A DNA stretch of 64,000 bases, taken from contig JAKPQA010000035.1 in assembly GCA_029547025.1 (NCBI GenBank), positions 1 to 64,000 of the forward strand, in the 5' to 3' direction. The stretch is from Armatimonadota bacterium. Lineage in GTDB: Bacteria; Armatimonadota; Zipacnadia; UBA1398; JAKPQA01. Shown here piece after piece: positions 2,911 to 20,752 of this stretch; position 1 is the first letter of the stretch; every line of letters begins with the position of its first letter. The translations under genes and the position numbers were made by a program. The notes beneath the pieces were generated by a model. It did not search any database and was not told where the DNA came from. It saw nothing but the letters and a program-made list of their open reading frames with translations.

Positions 2911-3051
2911 AGGGTCCTCCGTATGGTCTGCGGTTCCGGCATGGGGACAGGCAACGGGCTCACCAAGGTACATCGGTGGGCGCGCTGCCGGGGTTCCCGG
3001 GACCGCGCCCCGGGAACCGATGCGTTCGGTGATCTGTGGAGGTTCGAGCGA

Positions 3052-6000
3052 ATGAGGTTTGTGCGAATGAGGTTCGAGCGTGTCATGGTCGGTCTCGGCC
3101 TGGCTGCCCTGTGCCTGTGGGGCGCCGCCCTGGCCCAACCCGGAATGGACCCGGCTGGGCTGAGTGGGGTTCGCGTCTCCGCGGACACCGAGTACAGCGC
3201 GGCACATGCCGCCGCCAGGGTGGTGGACGGCACCATCCAGGCGCCCGAAGGGAGCTGGCTCTCGGCCGACTGGACACCGCTACCGTGCACACTGACATTG
3301 GAGCTACCCGCCACCGAGGTGATCCGGTCCATCGTGCTCCACCAGGCCGTGTGGTCGGGCAACATGTACCACACCCAGGACTTCGAGATCGATGCCTCAG
3401 AGGACGGCCGGGACTGGCGGCGTGCCGGCGCCGGCCGCTTGCCTGACGAGAGTGGGGCTTCCGTCGAGGTGCCACTGGATGGATGCCGGGCCCGGTGGCT
3501 GCGCATCCGAATCCTGACCTCCTACAATCCGCAGCAGACGTGCGGCCTGGCTGAGGTGGCCGTGCGCATGGACGGCCACCCTTCCTTCGGCCCGTGCGCG
3601 GTGGAGCTGAATGGCGTGCCGGCGGGGCCGAGCGATGCCGTCGCCGGCCTGCGGGTTGCGGCCGTGCCGGGAGGACCCCAGATGGCGCTAATGGCTCGCC
3701 CGGCCACCGCCGTGGTCGCACTGGCGCGGGGCGAGGAAGCTCGGCTACGGGTGCCGGTCGGTGGTTTGGCCGGGCCGGTGACGGTGACGGCCGAAGCGGC
3801 CGGAGACCCGGGCGCCTCGGCGGCCATATCGCTGGCCGATGGGCCGGTCCGATGGCAGGAGGTCAAGCCGGGTGCCACGGTGGTCCGCGCCGAGGCCCAT
3901 GTGACGGGCGACGTGGTGGTCTCCCTCGCATCAAAGGCGACACGCGATGGCTCGACGGTTCGATGGTCCTCCATCCGTCTGATCGCGCGGGAGCGCGAGT
4001 TCGAGATCCCACTGGTCGCCGAGTCGCCGATCGAGGACCTGGGACCGCCCCCGGAGCTCCCCGCCTTACGTCCCGCCATCGAGCAGTCCCTCATCGAGTG
4101 GGACTGGGCGTGCCAGGACGGAATCGGCACCGCTCGGTGCCCGAGCACGTATGAGGAGGCCATTCGGCGGACCATCGCCCGTGGAGACGCCCTGCTCGCG
4201 GATCTGAGGTCGCGGGCAGCCGGCATGGGCGACGTGGCGCGCCGCTGGGAGGCCGTGCGGGCTCGGCTCTCCGAGCTCGACGGAGCCGATCCGATGGGCG
4301 TGAAGGCTCGAAAGCTCTGGCTCGAGGTTCACGCCGCGCGGCGGCAGATGGCGCTCAGCAACCCCTTGGCCCACGTGGGTCCCCTGCTGTTCGTCAAGCA
4401 GGTCCCCGCTGCGTTCAGCCACCAGCTGACCCAGTACTATGGACGCTATGCCCGCCCCGGGGGCGGCGTGTTCGTGCTCGACCAGCCGGGCCGGTCCATG
4501 GCATGCCGGCGGCTCGCGGCCGGGGCGTTGCCCGAGGGCAGCTATCAGCACCCGGAGCTCAGCTACGATGGCCAGCGGGTGCTCTTCTCGTTCTGCGCGA
4601 CCGACCGTGGGCCGGGCGACTCGTTCGTGGGGAATCCGGGGCGGTACTACCACCTCTACGAGATGGGCATCGATGGGTCCGACTTGAGGCAGCTGACCGA
4701 TGGCGCCTTCGACGACTTCGCACCGCGGTACCTGCCCGATGGCCGTCTGGTGTTCATCTCAACCCGGCGTCTGGGATGGCACCGGTGCGGAACTCCGGGC
4801 TGCGAGAACTACACGCTCGCCGTGGCCGAGGCCGACGGGTCGAATGCCCGGCCGGTCTCATACCACGAGACCCAGGAGTGGGATCCGGCGGTGCTCGACG
4901 ATGGCCGGATCATCTACACCCGATGGGACTACGTGGACCGGCATGCGGTGTTCTACGAGCAGCTCTGGGCCACCCTCCCCGACGGGAGCCTGCCGTCGAC
5001 CTTCTACGGGAACAACACGTTCAACCCTGTGGGCGTCTGGGAGCCCCGCCCGGTGCCCGGCTCGCCTCGCATCATGGCCACCGCGGCGCCGCATCACGGC
5101 ATGACCGCCGGCTCCATCGTCCTGGTGGATGTCGGCTACGGCGTCGACGGCGAGGCCCCGATCACTCGGCTCACTCCCGATGCGCTGTTCCCCGAGAGCG
5201 AGAGCACGCTGGCGGCGTCGTGGCGCGCCGACATCCCCGGCCTCTCGGTCGACGTGCCCATCGAGGAGCAGCGGTGGCCGGGCCACTGCTACCGGAGCCC
5301 TTACCCTCTGTCGGAGGACTACTTCCTGGCCGCGTACAGCTACGATCGGCTGATCGGTGAGCCCTCGCCCAATCCGAGGAACATGTTCGGCCTGTACCTG
5401 GTGGACCGTTGGGGGAACAAGGAACTGCTGTACCGCGACCCCAACATCGCCAGCCTCTGGCCCGTGCCGATCCGCCCCCGGACGCGCCCGCCCGTGGTGG
5501 TCTCGGGCGCCACGGGGAATGGCAAGGGCACGGGCACGATCCTGATTCAGGACATCTACGAGAGCGCTCCCGCGATCCCCCGCGATGTGGTGCGCAAGTT
5601 GCGCGTGGTCCAGCTGGTTCCCAAGTCGACCCCGGGAGCCAACAACCCGCCGGTGGGCCTGGCCAACGCCTCGCCCGGGAAGCAAGTGCTGGGCACGGTT
5701 CCGGTCGAACCCGACGGGTCGGCCTGGTTCGAAGCCCCGGCCGGGGTGCCGCTGTCGTTCCAGGCACTGGATGAGCGGGGCATGGCTGTCCAGGTCATGC
5801 GGAGCGACACCTATCTGCAGCCGGGCCAGTCCATGTCCTGCGTGGGGTGCCATGAACCGCGGACGACGGCTCCGCCCAACCGCTCGCTTCGCGCCCTGTC
5901 GCGAGCGCCCTCGAAGATCGCTCCGGGACCGGATGGCTCCAAGCCGCTGAGCTACCCTCTCCTGGTGCAACCCGTGCTCGACAAGCACTGCGTCTCGTGC

Positions 6001-6354
6001 CACTCGGGCGGCCAACCCGCGGGTGGCGTCTCGCTGACCGCGCAACCGGAGGGCCGCTACACCGTCTCGTACAACGCGCTGGCGCCCCGAGTGTCGATCT
6101 CGCAGTGGGGCGTCGGTGACTTCCGCCGGGCCAACAGCGAGCCCCTGGCAACCCCGCTGTTCTTTGGGGCCCACGGGAGCCCGCTGGCCCGCCTGCTGCT
6201 GAGCGGACACCAGGGAGTCAAGCTCGAGGGCGAGGACTGGGACCGGTTGGTGACCTGGATGGATGCCAACGCCCTGTTCTACGGCACCTTCAACTTCGAG
6301 GACCAGGCGCGGCAGCAGCGCGGAGAGCGTATCGAGGGGCCCGAGCTGGAGTAG
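3052..6354 (+). CDS. Secreted F5/8C (discoidin) - propeller - c-type cytochrome protein, hydrazine-synthase-alpha-like
   Basis: A 1100-residue exported protein. The ATG at 3052 has GGAGG nine bases upstream and begins a signal peptide (basic start, then VMVGLGLAALCLWGAALA). Residues about 30-165 form a discoidin/F5/8C carbohydrate-binding fold (LSGVRVSADTEYS to AEVAVRM). Residues about 480-900 have WD40/PD40-like blades (SDLRQLTDGAFDDFAPRY, DGRLVFISTRR) of the kind found in the middle domain of the hydrazine synthase alpha subunit family. The C-terminus has two candidate haem sites: CVGCH (about 929) and CVSCH (about 979). The family is widespread in Planctomycetota-like genomes and is mostly unrelated to anammox. 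Here there are no hydrazine synthase beta or gamma genes, so hydrazine synthesis is not supported. A polysaccharide-linked periplasmic redox role is an inference. Confidence 0.85.
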   Translation: MRFVRMRFERVMVGLGLAALCLWGAALAQPGMDPAGLSGVRVSADTEYSAAHAAARVVDGTIQAPEGSWLSADWTPLPCTLTLELPATEVIRSIVLHQAVWSGNMYHTQDFEIDASEDGRDWRRAGAGRLPDESGASVEVPLDGCRARWLRIRILTSYNPQQTCGLAEVAVRMDGHPSFGPCAVELNGVPAGPSDAVAGLRVAAVPGGPQMALMARPATAVVALARGEEARLRVPVGGLAGPVTVTAEAAGDPGASAAISLADGPVRWQEVKPGATVVRAEAHVTGDVVVSLASKATRDGSTVRWSSIRLIAREREFEIPLVAESPIEDLGPPPELPALRPAIEQSLIEWDWACQDGIGTARCPSTYEEAIRRTIARGDALLADLRSRAAGMGDVARRWEAVRARLSELDGADPMGVKARKLWLEVHAARRQMALSNPLAHVGPLLFVKQVPAAFSHQLTQYYGRYARPGGGVFVLDQPGRSMACRRLAAGALPEGSYQHPELSYDGQRVLFSFCATDRGPGDSFVGNPGRYYHLYEMGIDGSDLRQLTDGAFDDFAPRYLPDGRLVFISTRRLGWHRCGTPGCENYTLAVAEADGSNARPVSYHETQEWDPAVLDDGRIIYTRWDYVDRHAVFYEQLWATLPDGSLPSTFYGNNTFNPVGVWEPRPVPGSPRIMATAAPHHGMTAGSIVLVDVGYGVDGEAPITRLTPDALFPESESTLAASWRADIPGLSVDVPIEEQRWPGHCYRSPYPLSEDYFLAAYSYDRLIGEPSPNPRNMFGLYLVDRWGNKELLYRDPNIASLWPVPIRPRTRPPVVVSGATGNGKGTGTILIQDIYESAPAIPRDVVRKLRVVQLVPKSTPGANNPPVGLANASPGKQVLGTVPVEPDGSAWFEAPAGVPLSFQALDERGMAVQVMRSDTYLQPGQSMSCVGCHEPRTTAPPNRSLRALSRAPSKIAPGPDGSKPLSYPLLVQPVLDKHCVSCHSGGQPAGGVSLTAQPEGRYTVSYNALAPRVSISQWGVGDFRRANSEPLATPLFFGAHGSPLARLLLSGHQGVKLEGEDWDRLVTWMDANALFYGTFNFEDQARQQRGERIEGPELE

Positions 6355-11003: not shown

Positions 11004-11792
11004 CTACGGCCCCGTCGCGCCTGGGCCCCCTCGGTAGATGATGCACAGCCAATGCGAGGCGCCGTCCTCGCGGAACGGGATGGACCAGAGTGTGCCGAAG
11101 TCGGCGTAGGGGATCTCGCGGCTGGGGCCCAGATCGGGGGCCGGGTCCCAGCACTGGTAGACCTCGCGCCGGTCGTCGAAGCCGGTGACCACGCGCATGT
11201 GTTCGACGTCGTTGTCGAGCGCGGCGTACTGGTAGACGAGAACGGGCCGGCCGATGGCGATGCTGCATCGCACCAGGTCCTCGGAGCCCTCCCCGATCCA
11301 TGCGCGAGCCCCGTAGTGGGCCACGAAGTCCGCCAGACGGCTCACATGAACGCCATCGACGCGCGCGCGGGGCCCGGCCATCTCCAGCAGCGCGTCCTCG
11401 GTGGCGGGTACCCCCACGAACCGCAGGCCCATCAGCGCGCAGGCAATGGCGCACAGGGATGGGTCCGTCTGGCGGACATAGGGCACGTCGGCCACCGAGA
11501 ACCGCGGGCCGCAGACCTCACTGGCGCGCGCCAGCGCCTCCTCGATGGGCTTCCAGCGCTCCGCCGTGCGATCGTCTGAGGACAGGAACTCGGTAGCGGC
11601 CCGGAAGGCCCATCGAGCCGCCGCCCGCGCGGACTCGGCGCGGGCGGGGGTGCCCTCGGTGTAGGCCCGGGCCGAGGCCGCGACGGCACGCGCTCGAGCG
11701 GCTGAGGCCATCCCGCCATCGCCCCCGAGGCACGGAAGGGCCGCGGCGAGCAGTGCGCTCGCGAGCGTGACCCCGATGACCGTGCGACCCAA
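11004..11792 (-). CDS. Exported C39-like papain-fold peptidase
   Basis: A 262-residue protein with a signal peptide (TVIGVTLASALLAAALPCLGG) and an Ala-rich linker to about residue 95. The C-terminal two thirds match the C39-like peptidase fold: catalytic Cys in TDPSLCAIACALMG (C114), His in VEHMRVVTGFD (H198) and Asp in YQCWDPAP (D216). This is the Cys-His-Asp order of the family. C39-like domains outside bacteriocin transporters usually cleave peptides in the periplasm or outside the cell. A candidate -10 box lies just upstream of the start. The gene is on its own transcript, convergent with the PspB-like pair and divergent from the CNBD gene. Confidence 0.75.
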   Translation of the reverse strand: MGRTVIGVTLASALLAAALPCLGGDGGMASAARARAVAASARAYTEGTPARAESARAAARWAFRAATEFLSSDDRTAERWKPIEEALARASEVCGPRFSVADVPYVRQTDPSLCAIACALMGLRFVGVPATEDALLEMAGPRARVDGVHVSRLADFVAHYGARAWIGEGSEDLVRCSIAIGRPVLVYQYAALDNDVEHMRVVTGFDDRREVYQCWDPAPDLGPSREIPYADFGTLWSIPFREDGASHWLCIIYRGGPGATGP

Positions 11793-11815
11793 CGCCCGTC
11801 CCCCCTCACACGGGC

Positions 11816-11821
11816 ATTATA
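11816..11821 (-). promoter_or_regulatory. Candidate -10 box for the C39-like peptidase gene
   Basis: The minus strand reads TATAAT, a perfect consensus, 23 bp upstream of the ATG at 11792 in otherwise very GC-rich sequence. No good -35 hexamer is visible at 16-18 bp. This AT-rich island also argues that the divergent CNBD gene starts further to the right. Confidence 0.4.
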
Positions 11822-11871
11822 GCCGGGCGCGCGCCGGGAGCGAGGTGTGCGGGGAGGCAACGGGGAAGGGC

Positions 11872-12558
11872 GTGCCGAATCCGGTGTGGGTCCCGACGAT
11901 CGAGGAGCCTGTCCCGGGGCTTGCGGGGGCACAGAGCGAGGTGGCGACGTTGAACTTCGATGCGACGCGCGGCCGTCGACGCTATCAGCCCCCGGGCCGC
12001 CCTTCCCCATTCCACCGGCCGATCCGGCGGTCGCCCTTCGAACGGGAGGGCGAGCCGGTCGCCGATGGGGCCGAAGAGCGCCCGGCCCCGGATCACGGGT
12101 TCGTGAAGGGCACCATCGCGGACTCGGCTCTCTTCATCGGCCTCAGCGAAGGAGAGCGGGACGACATCGCCGCATTCGCCGAGCCCTTGGTGTTCGCGCC
12201 TGGCACGTGTATCGTCCGCGAGGGCGAGCCGGGCGATGCCCTGTTCCTGCTGGCCGAAGGCACGGTCGAGATCGTGACCGGCGAGGGGACGCCCCATCAG
12301 AAGGTGGTGGCGCGCCTCAGTGGGGGCAGCTCCCTCCAGGCCGGCTATGCCGGCGCCTTCTTTGGCGAGATGTCGCTCATCGACGTGGAACCCCGGAGCG
12401 CCACCGTGCGCGCGCAGACTGACGTGAAACTGGTTCGCCTGCCGGCTCCGGCTCTGCGGCAGTACTACCAGACGCACCGCGATGCCCACCTGGCCATGGT
12501 GAGCAATCTGGCCCGCAGTCTCTCCAGGCGGCTCCGGCTCCTGACCGAGTCGGTCTAG
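11872..12558 (+). CDS. Cyclic nucleotide-binding domain (CNBD) protein
   Basis: About 228 residues if read from the GTG at 11872. GTG codons at 11845 and 11941 and an ATG at 11767 are alternatives, and the choice is uncertain. The first 75 residues are basic and Pro-rich. The rest is a single cNMP-binding beta-roll: FVKGTIADSALFIGLSEGE (N-terminal helix), then IVREGEPGDALFLLAEGTVEI, and the phosphate-binding cassette FGEMSLIDVEPRSATVRA, which keeps the Gly-Glu and Arg that hold the cyclic phosphate and ribose. The last 30 residues are a helix (LAMVSNLARSLSRRLRLL) but there is no winged-helix DNA-binding domain, so this is not a CRP-type regulator. The class III cyclase gene follows 168 bp downstream on the same strand. 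Confidence 0.8.
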   Translation: MPNPVWVPTIEEPVPGLAGAQSEVATLNFDATRGRRRYQPPGRPSPFHRPIRRSPFEREGEPVADGAEERPAPDHGFVKGTIADSALFIGLSEGERDDIAAFAEPLVFAPGTCIVREGEPGDALFLLAEGTVEIVTGEGTPHQKVVARLSGGSSLQAGYAGAFFGEMSLIDVEPRSATVRAQTDVKLVRLPAPALRQYYQTHRDAHLAMVSNLARSLSRRLRLLTESV

Positions 12559-12726
12559 GACCGTCCCGGCCAACGCCGGCCGCGGGCGCCCATGCCCCCC
12601 TCCGCGCGATGTGGGATGGGCGCTGGTGTGTGCGCGGGTTCCGTTCGGAGGCGTTCGGAGGCCCCACTGCGAACAGGATGGCGCAGCGGGTCGGCGTCGA
12701 GTGGGGTTGCACGGAAGGGCGCTCCT

Positions 12727-15258
12727 ATGGGTCCTCATGAGCCGGAAGAGTCACTCCCCCGCACGGTTGCGCTGATGTTCACGGACATCGAGGGTTCTGT
12801 GGCCCGGTGGGAGTCCGGGGGCAAGCGCTTCGCGCAGGCACTGGCGCTGCACAACGCGGTGGTGCGCCGGGTCGTGGGGCAGCACGACGGTTTCGAGGTG
12901 CGGTTCCAGGGCGACGGTTTCATGTGCGCGTTCTGCCGCGCGTCGGATGCGCTGCGGTGTGCGGTGGCTCTGGGTCCGGCGCTGGCGGCGGAGAGGTGGC
13001 CGGAGGGAGTCGGTGTGCCCGCGATCCGCGTGGCGATCCATGCGGGTGAGGTCGATGTCGTCGACGGCGACTACGTCGGCCCGACGGCCAACATCGCGGC
13101 AAGACTCCTGGAAGCAGCGGGTGGCGGTCAGATCCTCGCCTCTGAGATCGCGGTGAACCTTGCCGATGACGAAACCTCCCGCGAGCTCAGCCCTCTCGAC
13201 CTGGGTCAGCGCCACCTGAGAGGCATTGCGAAGCCCATGGGCGTGTACCTGATTTCGCCTCCCGGCGCGAGCCCGTCGACTGGCGCGCCCTCGCGTGATC
13301 TGGGCTTCATGCCCACCAACCTGGGTGCTCAGATGGACGAGTTCGTCGGCCGCGATCGTGAGCTGCGCGAGCTGGCGTCTCGGCTGTCCGAGCCTTCGAC
13401 CCGCCTGCTGACGGTGACGGGACCCGGGGGGGTTGGCAAGACACGGCTCATTCAGCACTTGGGCATGGCCGTCGTCCCGTCGTTCGAGCATGGCGCCTGG
13501 TTCATCGAGCTGGCGGGTGTGCGCGAGCCTTTGCAAGTGCCCGCCGCGGTCGCCGCGACTCTTCGGGTTCCGCTGACCGGTCCCCCGGAGACCCAGGCCA
13601 GTGAGCTCGCATCCCACTTGTCGAGCCGCGAGCTGTTATTGCTGCTCGACAACTTCGAGCACCTGGTGGAAGGCGCGGCCACCATCGGCCACGTGCTCGC
13701 AGCGGCCCCACGCCTCAAGTGCGTGGTGACCTCTCGCGAGCGGCTGCGGCTCCGTGGCGAGCACGTGTTCCAGCTCTCGCCCCTGGAACTGCCCGATGCG
13801 GCGGCCAGCCTCGAGGAGCAGCTTGCCAGCGAGAGCATGAGGCTCCTGGCGACGCGCGTGGCAGAGGTGCGTGGGCGGCCTCTGGAGCCCGATGAAGCCG
13901 ACGAGGCCGCGCGTATCTGCCGCCGGGTTGCTGGGTTGCCGCTGGCTCTCGAACTGGCCGCGTCAGCGCTGTCGCATATGACTCTGGGCGAGTTGGCCCA
14001 GAGCCTCGACGAACACATCGCCCTGCCCCAAGCCCATCTGCGCGATGTGCCCGACCGGCTGGGCAGCATGACCGCGGCCATCGATTGGTCCATCAGTCTG
14101 CTGAGCGACGAAGAGGCGCTGGTGCTTCGCCAGTGCGCGGTGTTCGAGGGCGGGTTCTACGTCGAGGCGGCGGAGGCCGTCTGCTCGACGCGGGAGACGC
14201 GGCGGGCGCTGGATGCCCTGCGGGACAAGTCGCTGCTCGGAGTCGAGGCGCGGCGCGGCCGGACGCGCTACACCATGCTACCGGTCATCCGTGAGCACTG
14301 CCTGGCTCTGCTGGCGGACTCGGCGGAGACGTGTCGCGCTCGGGCGGCCCTCCACTTCGCGAGCGTGGCACGCCAGCTCGACCTGGTGGGGCCCGGCCAG
14401 GCGCGCGCATTGGAGTCGGCTCGAAACGACCTGGACAACATCGTCGCCGCCCTCGAGTGGGCCAGGGCCCGCGGCGCCGACGACATGATCCGCGACATCG
14501 TGTGGGGCATGTGGCCGATCTTCTGGATGGCGAACCGTCCTTCTGAGGGGTGGGACTGGCTCGGGCTGGCCATCGGCGCGAGTCGTCGTCTCGGGGACGA
14601 CCGGGCCCTCGCAACCTTGCTGATCCGCACGGCCGCGGTCTGCAAGTGGAGGTCCGACTACGACGGCATGCGGGCTCGACTGGCCGAGGGCTCGGAAGTT
14701 GCTGACCGCACGGGCCTGCCCCGTGTGTGTCTGCTGCGAGACCTCGAGGCAGCCAGTCTGGCCCTGATCGATGGCGATCCCGAGGAAGCGCGGCGCCTCT
14801 ATGGCAGTTGCCTCGTGTCGTACACCGCTCTCGGCGATCCCTGGGGCATGGTTCAGAGCCTCAAGGGCCTGGCGGAAGTGGAACTGGAGCAGGGCGACTT
14901 CGTCGCCGCCGAGTACTACACGCGCGAGGCGCTCTCCCTCGAGACGCCGGATACGCAGCCCTGGGCCGCTTCGAACACGCTCTACGAACTGGGCCGAGTG
15001 CAAATGGCCGCCGGCGACTCCGCGGGCGCGGCCCGGAGTTACGCGGAAGCCGCCGGTCTGTGCCGCGCCATCGGTGATGCCCCGGGCTTGTTCAGCCGGC
15101 TGCGGGCCCTGGCCCGGGCACGCCAGGCTGCCGGGGACCTCGAGGGGGCGCTCGAAGCCTGGGACGAGGCGGTGGCCGTCGCGCGGCGCGAGGTGCCCTA
15201 TCTGGAGGCTGAGGCCCGGGCCGAGCGGGACAGAGCGGCCGGCCAAGGCCAGGAATAG
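12727..15258 (+). CDS. Class III adenylate/guanylate cyclase fused to NTPase and TPR domains
   Basis: An 843-residue signalling protein starting at the ATG at 12727 (GGAAGG upstream). The cyclase domain (about 10-180) has FTDIEGSVARWE (metal Asp D20), FQGDGF (second metal Asp D63), VAIHAGE and PTANIAARLLEAA. Then comes an NB-ARC/AAA-like NTPase: GPGGVGKTRL (Walker A, about 232), LLLLDNFEHL (Walker B, about 303) and VTSRERLRLRGEHVFQLSPL. The C-terminal 300 residues are helical repeats (TPR-like). The order cyclase, NTPase, TPR is common in large bacterial signalling ATPases. It probably makes cAMP. The 3' end overlaps the end of the glycosyltransferase gene on the opposite strand by 61 bp. Confidence 0.88.
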   Translation: MGPHEPEESLPRTVALMFTDIEGSVARWESGGKRFAQALALHNAVVRRVVGQHDGFEVRFQGDGFMCAFCRASDALRCAVALGPALAAERWPEGVGVPAIRVAIHAGEVDVVDGDYVGPTANIAARLLEAAGGGQILASEIAVNLADDETSRELSPLDLGQRHLRGIAKPMGVYLISPPGASPSTGAPSRDLGFMPTNLGAQMDEFVGRDRELRELASRLSEPSTRLLTVTGPGGVGKTRLIQHLGMAVVPSFEHGAWFIELAGVREPLQVPAAVAATLRVPLTGPPETQASELASHLSSRELLLLLDNFEHLVEGAATIGHVLAAAPRLKCVVTSRERLRLRGEHVFQLSPLELPDAAASLEEQLASESMRLLATRVAEVRGRPLEPDEADEAARICRRVAGLPLALELAASALSHMTLGELAQSLDEHIALPQAHLRDVPDRLGSMTAAIDWSISLLSDEEALVLRQCAVFEGGFYVEAAEAVCSTRETRRALDALRDKSLLGVEARRGRTRYTMLPVIREHCLALLADSAETCRARAALHFASVARQLDLVGPGQARALESARNDLDNIVAALEWARARGADDMIRDIVWGMWPIFWMANRPSEGWDWLGLAIGASRRLGDDRALATLLIRTAAVCKWRSDYDGMRARLAEGSEVADRTGLPRVCLLRDLEAASLALIDGDPEEARRLYGSCLVSYTALGDPWGMVQSLKGLAEVELEQGDFVAAEYYTREALSLETPDTQPWAASNTLYELGRVQMAAGDSAGAARSYAEAAGLCRAIGDAPGLFSRLRALARARQAAGDLEGALEAWDEAVAVARREVPYLEAEARAERDRAAGQGQE

Positions 15259-17018
15259 CGCGCTCCGCAGATCACCTCGTCGTAGAGCAGCTTGAACTTG
15301 AGGGCCGTGCGTCTGTCATCGAAGGTGCGGGCACGCTCGCGGGCCCTGCGTCCCATCACCTTGGGGTCATGTACGCCGTTCGCGAACTCCAAGGCCCGAA
15401 CGAGCATCTCATCGGGCCCGGAACACAAGAAGCCAGTGGTGCCGTGCCGAACCGTTTCGGCGAGCCCGTCCATCGCCGGAGCGATCACGGGGAGGCCCAC
15501 CGCCATGGCCTCGAGCAGGACGCAGCCGAAGGTCTCGACCTCGACCACATGCAGGCATACGTCCATGGCCCCGAGGTGCGCGGCCATGTCATCGACGGTG
15601 CCCGGCATGATGATGCGGTCGCCGAGCTGGAGGCTGGTGACCCGGTCGCGGTACTCCTCCAGCGAATCGCCTCCGCCGCATAGCAGGACGTAGGCCTTGG
15701 GGTGGCGGCGGACCAGCTCGACGTACACGTCGAACATCGGCGGCGTGAGCTTCACGTCGTCGAGGCGCGAGCCCGTGCCGAACACCAGGGCGTCGTCGGG
15801 CAGGCCCAGGGCTCGGCGGACCAGACGCCCACAAGGCGAGGGTGCGAAGGCGCACGGGTCCGTGCCGAGCCAGATGACTTCGCGCTCTTCCCGCGGGCCG
15901 GGGTGACGGGCCGCTAAGCAGTAGAGCGGGTACACCACGCGCCGCAGACCCGGTTGGGCCGGGAGAGTCAGATACAGGTGGACACTCGCCACCACGGGTA
16001 CGCGGTCGCCGAGAGCGCGAAGCGGATCGAGCCAGCCGCTGGGTGCATAGTGCACGTGGGCGGCATCGGCCCCACGGCTCGCCAGGAGGCGGCCGGCGGA
16101 CTCGTAGTCAGCCACGGCGACGGTAACCCCGATCTCGGCGAGCTCCGGCCCGAAATGCACTGGGGGCTCAGCCAGCGCCAACGTGAGCTCATGCTGGGGG
16201 CCGTGCAGGTGCCGCGCCAGTGACACGATGGAGCGCTCGGCCCCACCACACCAGAAGCCGTCCATGAAGTGGATAATCCGCCGGGGTTCGTGGTGTTTGC
16301 GCCGGAAGTAGGCGCTGTTGCGGTCTTTCTCGACATAGAGCCAGCCTGGCCGAGGATGGGGTTGGTGGTAGGCCACCGTGCTGGGGGACGAAATGGTGCG
16401 GCGTCCCAGCAGGTAGAGCCGGTGGCCCAGATCCAGGTCCTCATGCCCATAGCCCGTGAAGGCCTCGTCGAACAGGCCGACCTCGATGGCATCGAGCCGC
16501 CGGCACGACGCGTTGCAGGTGACGAACGGGATGGCGCCCACCTGTCCCTGACCCGGCGTCCACTGTCTTTCGCACAGATGGTCCCGGGCCCACGCCTCCC
16601 AGTCCTCGGGTAGAGGCGTCGGTGGCACCTCGGCCAGCCGGCGGTCCCAGCCACATACCATGCAGGGGCCATACCGGGCGTGCAGATCGAGATGGGCGCT
16701 GACGAAACCGGGCGGGCAGAGCATTTCGGCGTCGAGGAAGATCAGAACATCGCCCCGCGCGGCCCGGATGCCCCAGTTGCGGGCCTGGGCGCGACTGTTC
16801 GAGTACGGCTTGGCGATGTACTGGAACGCATATGGCGGGTTCAGGTCCTTCACGACCTGGTGGGTTCCGTCCTCCGAGCCGTCGTCGACCACGATCACCT
16901 CAAACGAGCCGCGCCGACACGACTGGTGGGCGAGCGACACGAGTGTGTTCCGCAGCAGACGGCCACGGTTGTGGCTCGGGACAACGATGCTACACGCGAT
17001 CCGGCCTCCCGAGTCCAT
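15198..17018 (-). CDS. GT2-GT4 two-domain glycosyltransferase
   Basis: A 606-residue fusion. The start at 17018 has AGGTGAGGAG upstream; the long in-frame stretch before it is not needed for the fold. Residues about 1-270 are a GT-A (GT2) domain: IACSIVVPSHNRGRLLRNTL, VVDDGSEDGT, LIFLDAEMLCPPGF and YGHEDLDLGHRL. Residues about 275-585 are a GT-B (GT4) domain: GFWCGGAERSIVSLARHL, ALAEPP, VVASVHL, FGTGSRLDDVK and the nucleotide-sugar motif ETFGCVLLEAMAVGLPV, which retains the EX7E pair. Fusion of an inverting and a retaining transferase suggests stepwise addition of two sugars. The stop codon lies inside the coding region of the cyclase gene on the other strand. Confidence 0.87.
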   Translation of the reverse strand: MDSGGRIACSIVVPSHNRGRLLRNTLVSLAHQSCRRGSFEVIVVDDGSEDGTHQVVKDLNPPYAFQYIAKPYSNSRAQARNWGIRAARGDVLIFLDAEMLCPPGFVSAHLDLHARYGPCMVCGWDRRLAEVPPTPLPEDWEAWARDHLCERQWTPGQGQVGAIPFVTCNASCRRLDAIEVGLFDEAFTGYGHEDLDLGHRLYLLGRRTISSPSTVAYHQPHPRPGWLYVEKDRNSAYFRRKHHEPRRIIHFMDGFWCGGAERSIVSLARHLHGPQHELTLALAEPPVHFGPELAEIGVTVAVADYESAGRLLASRGADAAHVHYAPSGWLDPLRALGDRVPVVASVHLYLTLPAQPGLRRVVYPLYCLAARHPGPREEREVIWLGTDPCAFAPSPCGRLVRRALGLPDDALVFGTGSRLDDVKLTPPMFDVYVELVRRHPKAYVLLCGGGDSLEEYRDRVTSLQLGDRIIMPGTVDDMAAHLGAMDVCLHVVEVETFGCVLLEAMAVGLPVIAPAMDGLAETVRHGTTGFLCSGPDEMLVRALEFANGVHDPKVMGRRARERARTFDDRRTALKFKLLYDEVICGARYSWPWPAALSRSARASASR

Positions 17019-17023
17019 GCTCC

Positions 17024-18283
17024 TCACCTTGGGCCCCGGGTCCGGCCCGCGCGCCGGGGTGGTTGTGGGCGGACCTGCGGCCCGCGGGCATGGGTGCCGT
17101 CTGCGCGCGGCGGCCGGTCCAGCGTGGGCGAACGTCCGATCGGCTCGTCCCAGATCACGTCGCCAAACTCGAGCGGGATCTCGTAAGGCCCGATGGGCGG
17201 CATGGCGGCATTCGCGCTGGAGCGTCCGCACACGGGGCAGGCGGACTCGTTGGCGTCGAGTCGGGGCGGCGTCGACGCCTCTGCCGGCTCCGGCAGCAGT
17301 CCGGCCAGGCAGAGGGCGGCGAGCAACTCGCTGGCTCGGCGGTCCCAGGACGACCCCGCGACGAAGTCGGGGTCGACCGGCTGCCTCCTGCGCGACTGGA
17401 CGGCGGCATGGATGGCCGCCCCGATCCCGTAAGGCTGCTCGTAGGAGCGCGTGTACGGGCGGCCACGGAGTGGCTCCACCGCTTCGCTGGTGACCACCCA
17501 GCAGCCTGCGGCCCAGTACTCGTAGGCCTTGATGGGATCCACGGACGGCGCAATGGGTCCGCGGAACGGCACCAAGCCCACGTGGTGCCGGGCCATGAGG
17601 TCGATGGCGGCCGCGTTGCCCATTGCGCCCGTGTATGTGACACCGGGCCACCGGGGCACTTGCGCGTGCAGTTCGCCGACGATGGTGAGTCGGCAGTCCT
17701 CCTGAGCGGCGACGTACCCGAGGGCGGTCCAATCGAGCCAGGAGCCCTCGAGGCCACCGACAAAGCATACGCGGACGGGGTCGCCGGGAGCCCAACTGGC
17801 GGTGGAGTGCGTGAAAAGTCCCGGGCCACCATTGCGGATGAGCGCCGTCCGGGCGGCGCCCAGGGCCCGGGCGCGCTCCTCGAGCCGCGGCGCCGTGCAG
17901 GTCACGAGCCGAGCCAGCCGCATGAGCTCGGCTTCGCCCTCGAGCATGTCAGCGGAGACGTCCCCTCCCGCCGCGAAAGCCGTCCAGTCGTCCAGCGATT
18001 CGTAGACAATACCCCACCCGAGCTCCGCCAGGCGGCGGGACAGGTGGAGGTGTTCGGGGAGCGCGCTGATGGCGATCCCCCGCCGATGGGCGCACCACGG
18101 GTCCAGCTCGGGCGGTCCCAGGATCTGCACGCGGCCATCAAGCCGGCAAGCGTCCTCGCCGTGGTAGAAGGCGACGTCGTACCCTTGCCGCGCCAGCGCT
18201 CGGGCGAGCTGAGCCGGCCGCTGGCCGCCGCCGGTGGCTTCATAGGGTGAACTGGATAGATAGAGAAATGCCGCCCTGCCCAT
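17024..18283 (-). CDS. GT4-type glycosyltransferase
   Basis: A 419-residue GT-B transferase. Its N-terminal half contains ATGGGQRPAQLARALARQG and an EHLHLSRRL region; the C-terminal half contains YTGAMGNAAAIDLMARH, LVPFRGPIAP and VDPIKAYEYWAAGCWVVTSE, which occupies the donor-site position, although a classic EX7E is not clear. The last 70 residues add a CPVCGRSS zinc-knuckle-like motif and a Pro/Arg-rich tail. Its stop is 5 bp before the next gene's start, so the two glycosyltransferases form an operon. They probably build an envelope or exported polysaccharide; the acceptor is unknown. Confidence 0.8.
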   Translation of the reverse strand: MGRAAFLYLSSSPYEATGGGQRPAQLARALARQGYDVAFYHGEDACRLDGRVQILGPPELDPWCAHRRGIAISALPEHLHLSRRLAELGWGIVYESLDDWTAFAAGGDVSADMLEGEAELMRLARLVTCTAPRLEERARALGAARTALIRNGGPGLFTHSTASWAPGDPVRVCFVGGLEGSWLDWTALGYVAAQEDCRLTIVGELHAQVPRWPGVTYTGAMGNAAAIDLMARHHVGLVPFRGPIAPSVDPIKAYEYWAAGCWVVTSEAVEPLRGRPYTRSYEQPYGIGAAIHAAVQSRRRQPVDPDFVAGSSWDRRASELLAALCLAGLLPEPAEASTPPRLDANESACPVCGRSSANAAMPPIGPYEIPLEFGDVIWDEPIGRSPTLDRPPRADGTHARGPQVRPQPPRRAGRTRGPR

Positions 18284-18395
18284 GGTGCATCACCCAGCAC
18301 TTCACAATGGCTTTGCTAAGGACAGTCGTACCGGTGGTGGCTTCCACAATGAGCTAGCAAATACCTGCAAGGGTTTGAAGGTGATATGCACAGAG

Positions 18396-18424
18396 TTCAG
18401 GAAACGGGCCAGGGGAGTGATAAT
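18396..18424 (+). promoter_or_regulatory. Candidate sigma70 promoter for the encapsulin-like gene
   Basis: TTCAGG at 18396-18401 is followed by a 17-bp spacer and GATAAT at 18419-18424 (five of six matches to TATAAT). This places transcription start about 40 bp before the ATG at 18473. The intergenic region 18284-18472 is markedly more AT-rich than the surrounding DNA and is shared with the divergent glycosyltransferase operon. The -35 match is weak. Confidence 0.4.
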
Positions 18425-18472
18425 AAGCATTACCGCTGGCATTGCGAGCGGACCCATGCGGAGGTGGCACTC

Positions 18473-19381
18473 ATGTCCGACCAGACGCGTGGTACGGGTG
18501 GTCCGGGCCGCGGCCCGGGTACCGAGGATCTCACGAGGCCGTACAACCTGACTCGGCAGTACATGCTGGCCGAGGGCGCCGAGGTGACCCCCACAGACGC
18601 AGTCCAGGCCACGGTGAACTCGCTCGTCGAGAGGCTCCTCGTGGGGCGCAGGCTCTTCGAGGTGGTTCACTCCGGCACAGACGTCCCATCCGGCATCGTG
18701 TGGGCGCAGACGCAGGCCCATGGCGGAGACAAGGCCGAGGGCCCGACCGTGGAGGTCAGTACGGCCCAGATCGCCGCTCCCAGCACGCGTCTGTGGGCGG
18801 CGGTGGAGATCGACGAGTCTGAGATCGACCTCCGAGCATGCATAGCCCGGTCTAGCGCCCTGGTCGATGTGGCCCGGCAGATGGCGCTCCAGGAGGACCG
18901 GGTGGTCTTCCAGCAGGTGTGGGAGCGGAGCTCCCGGCTGCCCGCGACCCACGGTGGTCGCTCTGCTGATGGGGATCCCGCCGCGACAGCGCTCACCACG
19001 GCGTTAGGCACGCTCCGCGGGGCCGGCCATCGCGGGGGCGTCGCTCTGCTACTCGCGGCTGGAGATGGCTTCCGCGACATCGAGTCGGAGCTAGCTCGGA
19101 CGGGCTGCATCGCTCGGGTGGCGCCCCTGTTCGCTCTCGGGATCCACGCCGTTCCCCTCATGGCGTCTGGGGACGCGCTGGTAGTCGCCCCCGAGGGGTC
19201 CGGTGCCAGCATCACCGTGGGCCAGAACTACGCCGTGTCGTGCATTGAGTGCAGCGGGCCGCGGCTGAGGTTCGGGATCTGTACGACGTTTGGCGTCTCT
19301 CCCGGCGCTCCAGCCGCGCAGTGCCGGTTGAGCGTGCCCGAACCGCCGGCTCCCGGCGGCGCCCAGCGGAAGCGCGGGTAG
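18473..19381 (+). CDS. Encapsulin-like (linocin M18 / HK97-fold) shell protein
   Basis: A 302-residue protein. GGAGGTGG at 18460-18467 fixes the ATG at 18473. It follows family 1 encapsulin order: helix ATVNSLVERLLVGRRLFEVV (about 47-65); E-loop-like GPTVEVSTAQI (about 90-100); spine-like RLWAAVEIDESEIDL (106-120); VARQMALQEDRVVFQQ (133-148, compare the AMAEDRAIL/AEFEDEVIF segments of known encapsulins); A-domain strands VALLLAAGDGFRDIESEL (190-207), DALVVAPEGSGASITVGQNYAV (234-255) and LRFGICTTFGV (265-275). A 20-residue Gly/Pro-rich N-terminal extension and a Pro-rich C-terminal tail (about 290-302) are additional. These shells enclose cargo enzymes, but no peroxidase, ferritin-like or other known cargo gene is adjacent. 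The next gene (esterase) lacks a typical cargo-loading peptide. Phage capsid origin is less likely because no phage genes surround it. Confidence 0.72.
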   Translation: MSDQTRGTGGPGRGPGTEDLTRPYNLTRQYMLAEGAEVTPTDAVQATVNSLVERLLVGRRLFEVVHSGTDVPSGIVWAQTQAHGGDKAEGPTVEVSTAQIAAPSTRLWAAVEIDESEIDLRACIARSSALVDVARQMALQEDRVVFQQVWERSSRLPATHGGRSADGDPAATALTTALGTLRGAGHRGGVALLLAAGDGFRDIESELARTGCIARVAPLFALGIHAVPLMASGDALVVAPEGSGASITVGQNYAVSCIECSGPRLRFGICTTFGVSPGAPAAQCRLSVPEPPAPGGAQRKRG

Positions 19382-19468: not shown

Positions 19469-20752
19469 GTGGCCCGACACCGTTTGCTGCTGCGCTGCCT
19501 GCTTGGTCTTGCCGTACTCTGCAGTGTCGTCTCTTCCGTCTCGGCGGAGGCGACGCTGCGTGTCAACACCGACCGGCCTGACGCCATCTACGCGTGCGGG
19601 GATGATGCCACATTCGCCGTGGGTCTCCAGCGCGATGGCGGCCCCGTGGTCGAGGCCACCGTCCAGTATCGGCTGACCCTCGACGGCGGCAAGCTCCTCG
19701 GCGAGGGCGAGCTCGCGGTTCGCGACGGCCGAGCAGAGGTGCGCGCGACGCTGGCGGAGCCCGGCTTCGTGCGCCTCTCGGTGACATTCGCCGGGGAGGA
19801 CGGCCACATCGACGCCATGGCCGCGGCGGCCTTCGACCCCGAGCACATCGTGCCATCGGCCGACGAGCCGGCGGACTTCGTCGAGTTCTGGGCGAGGCAG
19901 AAGGCCGAGTTGGCCACCATCGCTCCCGACCCGCGGCTCGAGGAGCGGGCCGACCTGTCCAGCGACCAGCGGACGGTCTACAAGATCAGCCTGGCGAACA
20001 TCGGCGGCAGCCGCGTCTACGGCTGGCTGGCAGTGCCCAAGTCCCCGGGCCCCTATCCCGCCGTGCTGACCGTCCCCTGGGCAGGTGTGTACCCGACACC
20101 CGTCGGGCTCATCGACTGGGCGGACCGAGGCTTCCTCGCCATGGCCATCAGCGCGCACGACTACGATGTCGACATGCCGGCGGAGGAGTACAAGAAGCTC
20201 GAGGAGGGCCCGCTCAAGGGCTATCCCCATCAGGGGCGCGAGAGCCGCGAGACGGGTTACTTCCGCCGGGTGTTCCTCGGATGCGTTCGGGCCGTGGACT
20301 ACCTGACATCCCGCGAAGACTGGGACGGGACGTCGCTGATCGTCACCGGTTCGAGCCAGGGGGGAGGGCTATCGCTGGTCACGGCGGGGCTCGACCGCCG
20401 AGTGACGGCCCTGGCGGCGAATGTGCCGGCGCTGTGTGACCACCTCGGGTACAAGGCGGGCCACCAGCCGGGCTGGCCGCGCCTGGTGACTGAGGGCGCC
20501 GCCGACCAGGAACAGGCTGCGGGCTACTTCGATGCCGTCAACTTCGCGCGCCACGTGGCCTGCCCGGCCATTGTCGGAGTAGGCTTCATCGACACCGTGT
20601 GCCCCCCCACGGGCGTCTACGCTGCCTACAACGTGCTCGGCGGCCCGAAGCAGATCGTCCCGACGCCCTTAATGGGACACTCACAGAGCGAGGTGTATGG
20701 TGCCTTGCTCCATCGCTGGATCCCCGAGCAGGCCGGCCGAGCCGCCCGGTAA
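19469..20752 (+). CDS. Exported acetyl xylan esterase-like alpha/beta hydrolase
   Basis: A 427-residue protein starting at a GTG with GGGGAGG just upstream. Signal peptide: LLLRCLLGLAVLCSVVSSVSA. Residues about 28-115 form an Ig-like beta domain; the rest is an AXE1 / cephalosporin-deacetylase alpha/beta hydrolase. The catalytic triad is visible: Ser in GSSQGGGLS (about 295), Asp in GFIDTVCPP (about 373) and His in GHSQSE (about 402). Oxyanion-side residues sit in the VPWAGVYP region. The enzyme removes acetyl groups from hemicellulose or related oligosaccharides in the periplasm. It starts 87 bp after the encapsulin-like gene. A polysaccharide role matches the GH38 mannosidase and xylose isomerase in this window; an encapsulin cargo role is not supported by its sequence. 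Confidence 0.86.
   Translation: MARHRLLLRCLLGLAVLCSVVSSVSAEATLRVNTDRPDAIYACGDDATFAVGLQRDGGPVVEATVQYRLTLDGGKLLGEGELAVRDGRAEVRATLAEPGFVRLSVTFAGEDGHIDAMAAAAFDPEHIVPSADEPADFVEFWARQKAELATIAPDPRLEERADLSSDQRTVYKISLANIGGSRVYGWLAVPKSPGPYPAVLTVPWAGVYPTPVGLIDWADRGFLAMAISAHDYDVDMPAEEYKKLEEGPLKGYPHQGRESRETGYFRRVFLGCVRAVDYLTSREDWDGTSLIVTGSSQGGGLSLVTAGLDRRVTALAANVPALCDHLGYKAGHQPGWPRLVTEGAADQEQAAGYFDAVNFARHVACPAIVGVGFIDTVCPPTGVYAAYNVLGGPKQIVPTPLMGHSQSEVYGALLHRWIPEQAGRAAR

Follow-up and report, generated by a model that had tools for sequence, protein, structure and literature searches.

The window analyzed here, a stretch of 64,000 nucleotides (positions 1 to 64,000 of contig JAKPQA010000035.1 of an Armatimonadota bacterium), contained a gene for an encapsulin-like (Linocin_M18) protein of 302 aa on the plus strand at 18473..19381, referred to below as the shell gene. 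The gene started at an ATG at 18473, a few bases downstream of GGAGGTG, and ended at 19381. A preliminary description had placed a 302-residue protein at 18284-19381; its length and end were right, and its start fell in the divergent promoter region. This intergenic region (18284..18472, 189 bases) held the GGAGGTG ribosome-binding site, and neither a sigma-70-like promoter nor a terminator was found within it. On its other side, on the minus strand, lay a GT1/GT4-type glycosyltransferase of 419 aa (GT1, 17024..18283), composed of a catalytic part of approximately residues 1-337 and a P/R/G-rich tail of 80 residues. GT1 scored 23.9 bits against Glyco_trans_1_4, slightly below the cut-off of 27. 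The end of GT1 was coupled to the start of a bifunctional glycosyltransferase of 606 aa (GT2-GT4, 15198..17018, minus strand), which matched Glycos_transf_2 and Glycos_transf_1 and contained the sequence motifs of both active sites. Convergent with GT2-GT4 was a STAND-type regulator of 888 aa (cyclase-like, NB-ARC, and TPR; 12592..15258, plus strand). Downstream of the shell gene was an AXE1 esterase (19469..20752, plus strand), so that the neighbors were as first described, with glycosyltransferases on one side and an esterase on the other. The gene starts of the neighbors are approximate.

The family membership of the shell protein was examined by profile searches. The Linocin_M18 profile (PF04454), proposed earlier as a check, matched it with 48.8 bits (E 7e-13, Pfam cut-off 24.3) over profile positions 18-235 of 253, and this was the only match in the 6.3 Mb genome. 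Profile-profile comparison (hhalign) with six canonical encapsulins gave a probability of 98% and an E value of 9e-14 over 241 columns. When a profile of the window protein and its one divergent relative (see below) was compared with solved structures, all 33 of the 33 matches were encapsulins or nanocages built from them, the best being the Thermotoga maritima encapsulin (E 4.5e-8). The similarity to encapsulins was therefore far beyond chance. AlphaFold run on the single sequence gave an unusable model (mean pLDDT 38), and viral contigs searched to deepen the alignment provided no usable encapsulins. The NCBIfam model of family 1 encapsulins (encap_f1, NF041155) scored the protein at 35.9 bits, below its cut-off of 100, so that, judged by its sequence, the window protein is an encapsulin homologue outside canonical family 1. 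The proposed match to family 1 encapsulins thus stood as homology and failed as membership. The FGICTTFGV stretch described as terminal was near the C-terminus but not at it.

We ran PF04454 against 291 phylum genomes. The matches were mostly canonical shells (mostly >130 bits), together with a second weak one in G257, a genome that belongs to the same class but to a different family and also carries a canonical encapsulin. The divergent G257 shell scored about 50.4-50.5 bits with PF04454 (cut-off 24.3) and 50.4 bits with NF041155 (cut-off 100), compared to 236.6 bits for the canonical G257 copy. The window and G257 divergent shells were 26% identical and paired in the tree with a support of 96/98, on very long branches that call for caution about long-branch effects. 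Both genes had an open frame, a ribosome-binding site, and a codon-position GC content like that of real genes. Protein searches of the phylum genomes, GTDB contigs, plasmids, and phages found no third divergent shell, and the GT2-GT4 matches in a scan of GTDB genome contigs were all generic glycosyltransferases, none of which had an encapsulin in its vicinity. The known divergent members are two, and all conservation arguments below rest on this one pair.

The cargo pocket was compared next to that of a characterized shell. In the K. pneumoniae encapsulin, cryo-EM and mutants identified Arg34, Asp229, and Ile230 as the residues that bind the targeting peptide, and mutation of Arg34 or Asp229 almost abolishes cargo loading (PMC10960027). 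Asp229 was equated with the GQD aspartate by counting residues in the T. maritima alignment, with the K. pneumoniae numbering taken as equal to that of T. maritima on the basis of equal alignment offsets. Arg34 was invariant in 22 of 22 canonical phylum shells and was kept in both divergent ones. Position 229 was Asp in all 22 canonical shells and Asn in both divergent shells; in the window protein this was Asn252 (codon 19226..19228, plus strand). The change from Asp to Asn was the sole common replacement of the divergent shells among the 21 canonical-invariant columns; 10-12 of the 21 otherwise invariant canonical residues were lost. The residue after the Asn was Tyr or Phe, where the canonical neighbor is usually aliphatic, but Phe was also present at this position in two canonical shells, making that part of the difference weaker. 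Neither divergent shell had the full Arg34 and Asp229 pair of family 1.

We further investigated whether the usual cargo was encoded at these loci. No [ILV]G[SDN]L tail was present near the terminus of any called gene of the window, and no IGSL/VGDL-type tail was found at the divergent locus of G257 (L032). The canonical shells of four genomes of the class (G257, G253, G270, and G289; loci L163, L165, L168, and L169) served as the positive control. Each was immediately preceded, on its own strand, by the gene for a ferritin-like protein of 126-135 aa ending in IGSLRGQ, IGSLR, VGDLTKQ, or VGDLTGGIS. The G257 protein matched the EncB cargo family, and no EncB-type protein scored above the cut-off in the window genome. 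Since the canonical loci of the class displayed the usual tails, a code of this kind at the divergent loci would not have escaped notice. As a separate observation, EncB-type ferritin-like proteins without an IGSL/VGDL tail stood, in four genomes of the class, at the site of the encapsulin operon of their relatives (L188:5612-6004 in G271, L184:4138-4458 in G290, L185:3934-4248 in G288, and L186:4278-4616 in G267), and neither an encapsulin gene nor a hidden divergent shell was found near them. Shell and targeting peptide appear to have been lost jointly, most clearly within one genus, in which G270 has both and G271 neither; the L186 protein is encoded close to the end of its contig, where a shell gene may simply be cut off.

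The shell gene had been described as an orphan. Comparison with G257 argued otherwise, since the shell, GT2-GT4, and STAND regulator genes are kept together as a block in another family of the class as well. The order was the same in both genomes: regulator (plus), GT2-GT4 (minus), a motif-bearing ORF (minus), and shell gene (plus), so that the neighborhood check proposed earlier returned the regulator, GT2-GT4, and the motif ORF as conserved co-occurring genes, in one homologue (G257). In an all-against-all comparison of 95 kb on the window side with the whole 84.7 kb G257 contig, the block members were the only orthologues, and outside the block the contigs had in common just kinase and glycosyltransferase domains. 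The two regulators had 39% identity over 832 aa, and neither was as close to any of the four next best regulators of the phylum as to the other. The GT2-GT4 proteins were 45% identical over 590 aa; across 46 class genomes, only two had orthologues (scores of 1246 and 1260 bits, the next match being 138), and these are the ones that carry the divergent shells. The shell protein thus diverged faster (26%) than its partners (39-45%). The slot downstream of the shell gene, by comparison, was occupied in G257 by a ceramidase-like gene unrelated to the AXE1 esterase. The esterase, speculated to be a possible cargo, was rejected as such because it was not conserved in G257, and is regarded as a neighbor outside the system. 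As the downstream genes differ between the genomes, the partner should lie on the glycosyltransferase side, and the glycosyltransferase module is the likely partner of the shell. We also looked for a DNA element common to the two intergenic regions, and none was found. Separately, the Pfam domain Guanylate_cyc was detected only in the window regulator (12592-15258) and not in the G257 copy (L032:3851-6442), in which the cyclase-like domain appears less conserved.

The ORF coupled to and just upstream of GT2-GT4 was the 419-aa GT1 in the window and a 130-aa protein in G257, which are unrelated except for a shared peptide. This candidate docking motif, PIGPYEIPLEFGDVIWD, comprised residues 363-379 in the GT1 tail (17147..17197, minus strand) and was identical at 11 of 17 positions to its G257 counterpart, PIGPYEIPIELLQAGWD, at residues 64-80; the core common to both was PIGPYEIP[LI]E. 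The claim that no neighbor had a typical cargo-loading tail was therefore correct for the canonical motif, but the GT1 tail did share a motif, with the G257 ORF only. In a shuffle test, the motif score was reached by 0/2000 shuffles against the GT1 tail and by 1/2000 against the whole of GT1. All codon differences within PIGPYEIP were synonymous and at third positions, indicating that selection acts on the peptide. A scan of the 291 genomes with the degenerate pattern P-x-GPYE-x-P found one copy each in the window genome and G257, both beside the divergent shell gene, plus two other matches, within the noise of a reversed control. Class homologues of GT1 aligned to residues 58-337 only and lacked the tail, indicating that the 80-residue tail is an addition. 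PIGPYEIP was internal to its ORFs rather than terminal, and was encoded on the strand divergent from the shell gene. Looser matches in the window genome fell in unrelated proteins. A large protein on another contig of this genome (C354; L195:1074-3017, minus strand) has GLGPYDLPPVAVRAEWD near residue 499, which fits GPY[ED][IL]P-x7-WD with the spacing of the candidate motif and may be a chance match.

The divergent shells were compared with known systems. They resembled family 1 encapsulins (T. maritima, M. tuberculosis Cfp29, and K. pneumoniae) in the HK97-type sequence signature over the 241 aligned columns, a spine helix with A..E (QED in P0002), the pocket Arg34, and an E-loop region of about canonical length. 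They differed from family 1 in having an N-terminal extension of about 40 residues, in the replacement in both proteins of Arg8 and the helix Trp (the R...W..D motif of the elongated N-terminal helix), in the lack of the conserved GLL...W segment of 15-20 residues after the spine helix, and in the lack of a ferritin, peroxidase, or IGSL-tailed partner at their loci. Among the cargos listed in a survey of encapsulins (Andreas and Giessen 2021, PMC8346489) are peroxidases, ferritin-like proteins, and other enzymes; neither glycosyltransferases nor Armatimonad names occur in its text. Its 90 unassigned family 1 systems similarly have no recognized cargo type and varied neighborhoods; unlike the present case, with its N-terminal extension, their notable members are N-terminal truncations. 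A text search of a limited collection of papers returned no relevant one pairing encapsulins with glycosyltransferases. With family 2 encapsulins (2A and 2B) the window protein shares a disordered N-extension, and a cNMP-binding protein is encoded nearby (11767-12558). Unlike family 2B shells, the window protein itself contained no inserted cNMP domain (Pfam: Linocin_M18 only), and a link to 2B through the nearby gene was rejected because that gene is not conserved in G257. The PADLOC models of anti-phage defence gave no match.

Our preferred explanation, held tentatively, is a combined one: a divergent HK97-type subfamily of encapsulin-like shell proteins that uses an altered cargo code and is linked genetically to a glycosyltransferase module. 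The protein would keep the encapsulin fold and probably assemble into a shell, and its pocket, with the Arg kept and an Asn plus an aromatic residue, may bind PIGPYEIP[LI]E instead of IGSL/VGDL. The cargo would be GT1, or an adaptor that brings in the coupled GT2-GT4 enzyme, with the motif carried by the GT1 tail in the window and by the 130-aa protein in G257. Expression may be controlled by the neighboring STAND regulator. Against this reading stand the fast divergence of the shell protein, its missing post-spine segment, and the motif's internal position and divergent strand, given that canonical cargo genes of the class share the strand of their shell. The fullest form of this idea, a new encapsulin subfamily that encloses the glycosyltransferase module through an internal PIGPYEIP[LI]E tag read by the Asn-aromatic pocket, we consider unlikely as a whole. 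If true, it would be the first carbohydrate-synthesizing encapsulin compartment. A shell subfamily tied to a sugar-polymer module, in which a pocket residue and a candidate tag changed as a pair, would illustrate the rewiring of a cargo code and offer engineers a second tag-shell pair, possibly an orthogonal one.

A doubtful but quite possible alternative to the preferred combined reading is that the protein has an encapsulin fold without assembling, and serves the glycosyltransferases as a soluble scaffold or regulator, with PIGPYEIP binding to the scaffold or to GT2-GT4. Fast divergence and the missing post-spine segment could mean that the protein can no longer form a shell; together with the internal position of the motif, and the loss of 10-12 of 21 invariant residues, they leave real room for such a role. 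The motif ORF is also translationally coupled to GT2-GT4 and not to the shell gene. Against this, the E-loop region is about as long as in canonical shells, the protein aligns from N-arm to C-terminus over 241 columns, and Arg34 is kept.

It is rather improbable that this is an ordinary shell whose real cargo is encoded elsewhere, with a glycosyltransferase neighborhood due to co-regulation or shared descent of the segment and a PIGPYEIP motif unrelated to the shell. Some real room for it is left by the fast divergence, the missing post-spine segment, and the internal motif. Proximity to glycosyltransferases can be incidental, as family f8 shows: two GT4 genes adjoin a canonical encapsulin there and persist in relatives from which the shell has disappeared. 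The STAND-type regulators are also common in the phylum (132/291 genomes). However, the two contigs lack synteny outside this conserved block, the genomes with GT2-GT4 orthologues are the two that carry divergent shells, and no canonical-type tail was present at the locus.

A domesticated or remnant phage capsid of the encapsulin-related type is very unlikely. A viral protein annotated as phage head protein phrog_771 (L181:1985-3070, IMG/VR 3300027580_000106) scored 46 bits with the canonical encapsulin profile, much like P0003 (45 bits), and the divergent shells share with such capsids a distant HK97-type homology. Unlike this viral protein, neither divergent protein matched any PHROG (none at E <1 for the window protein), no phage-like gene was detected among the family-searched neighbors of either locus, and tblastn against 50,697 phage records gave no match; furthermore, the frame was intact in two families of one class. 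As an observation of its own, this viral protein may be closely related to the family 1 shell. The high divergence could also suggest that a canonical encapsulin gene is decaying into a pseudogene, which is highly improbable given the gene-like features of both copies (an uninterrupted frame, a ribosome-binding site, and GC by codon position), as a pseudogene would not remain open down to 26% identity.

Elsewhere in the window, positions 2923-6354 encoded a protein of 1143 aa with an HZS_alpha domain (hydrazine synthase alpha middle domain, 82 bits) and an F5/8 type C domain.
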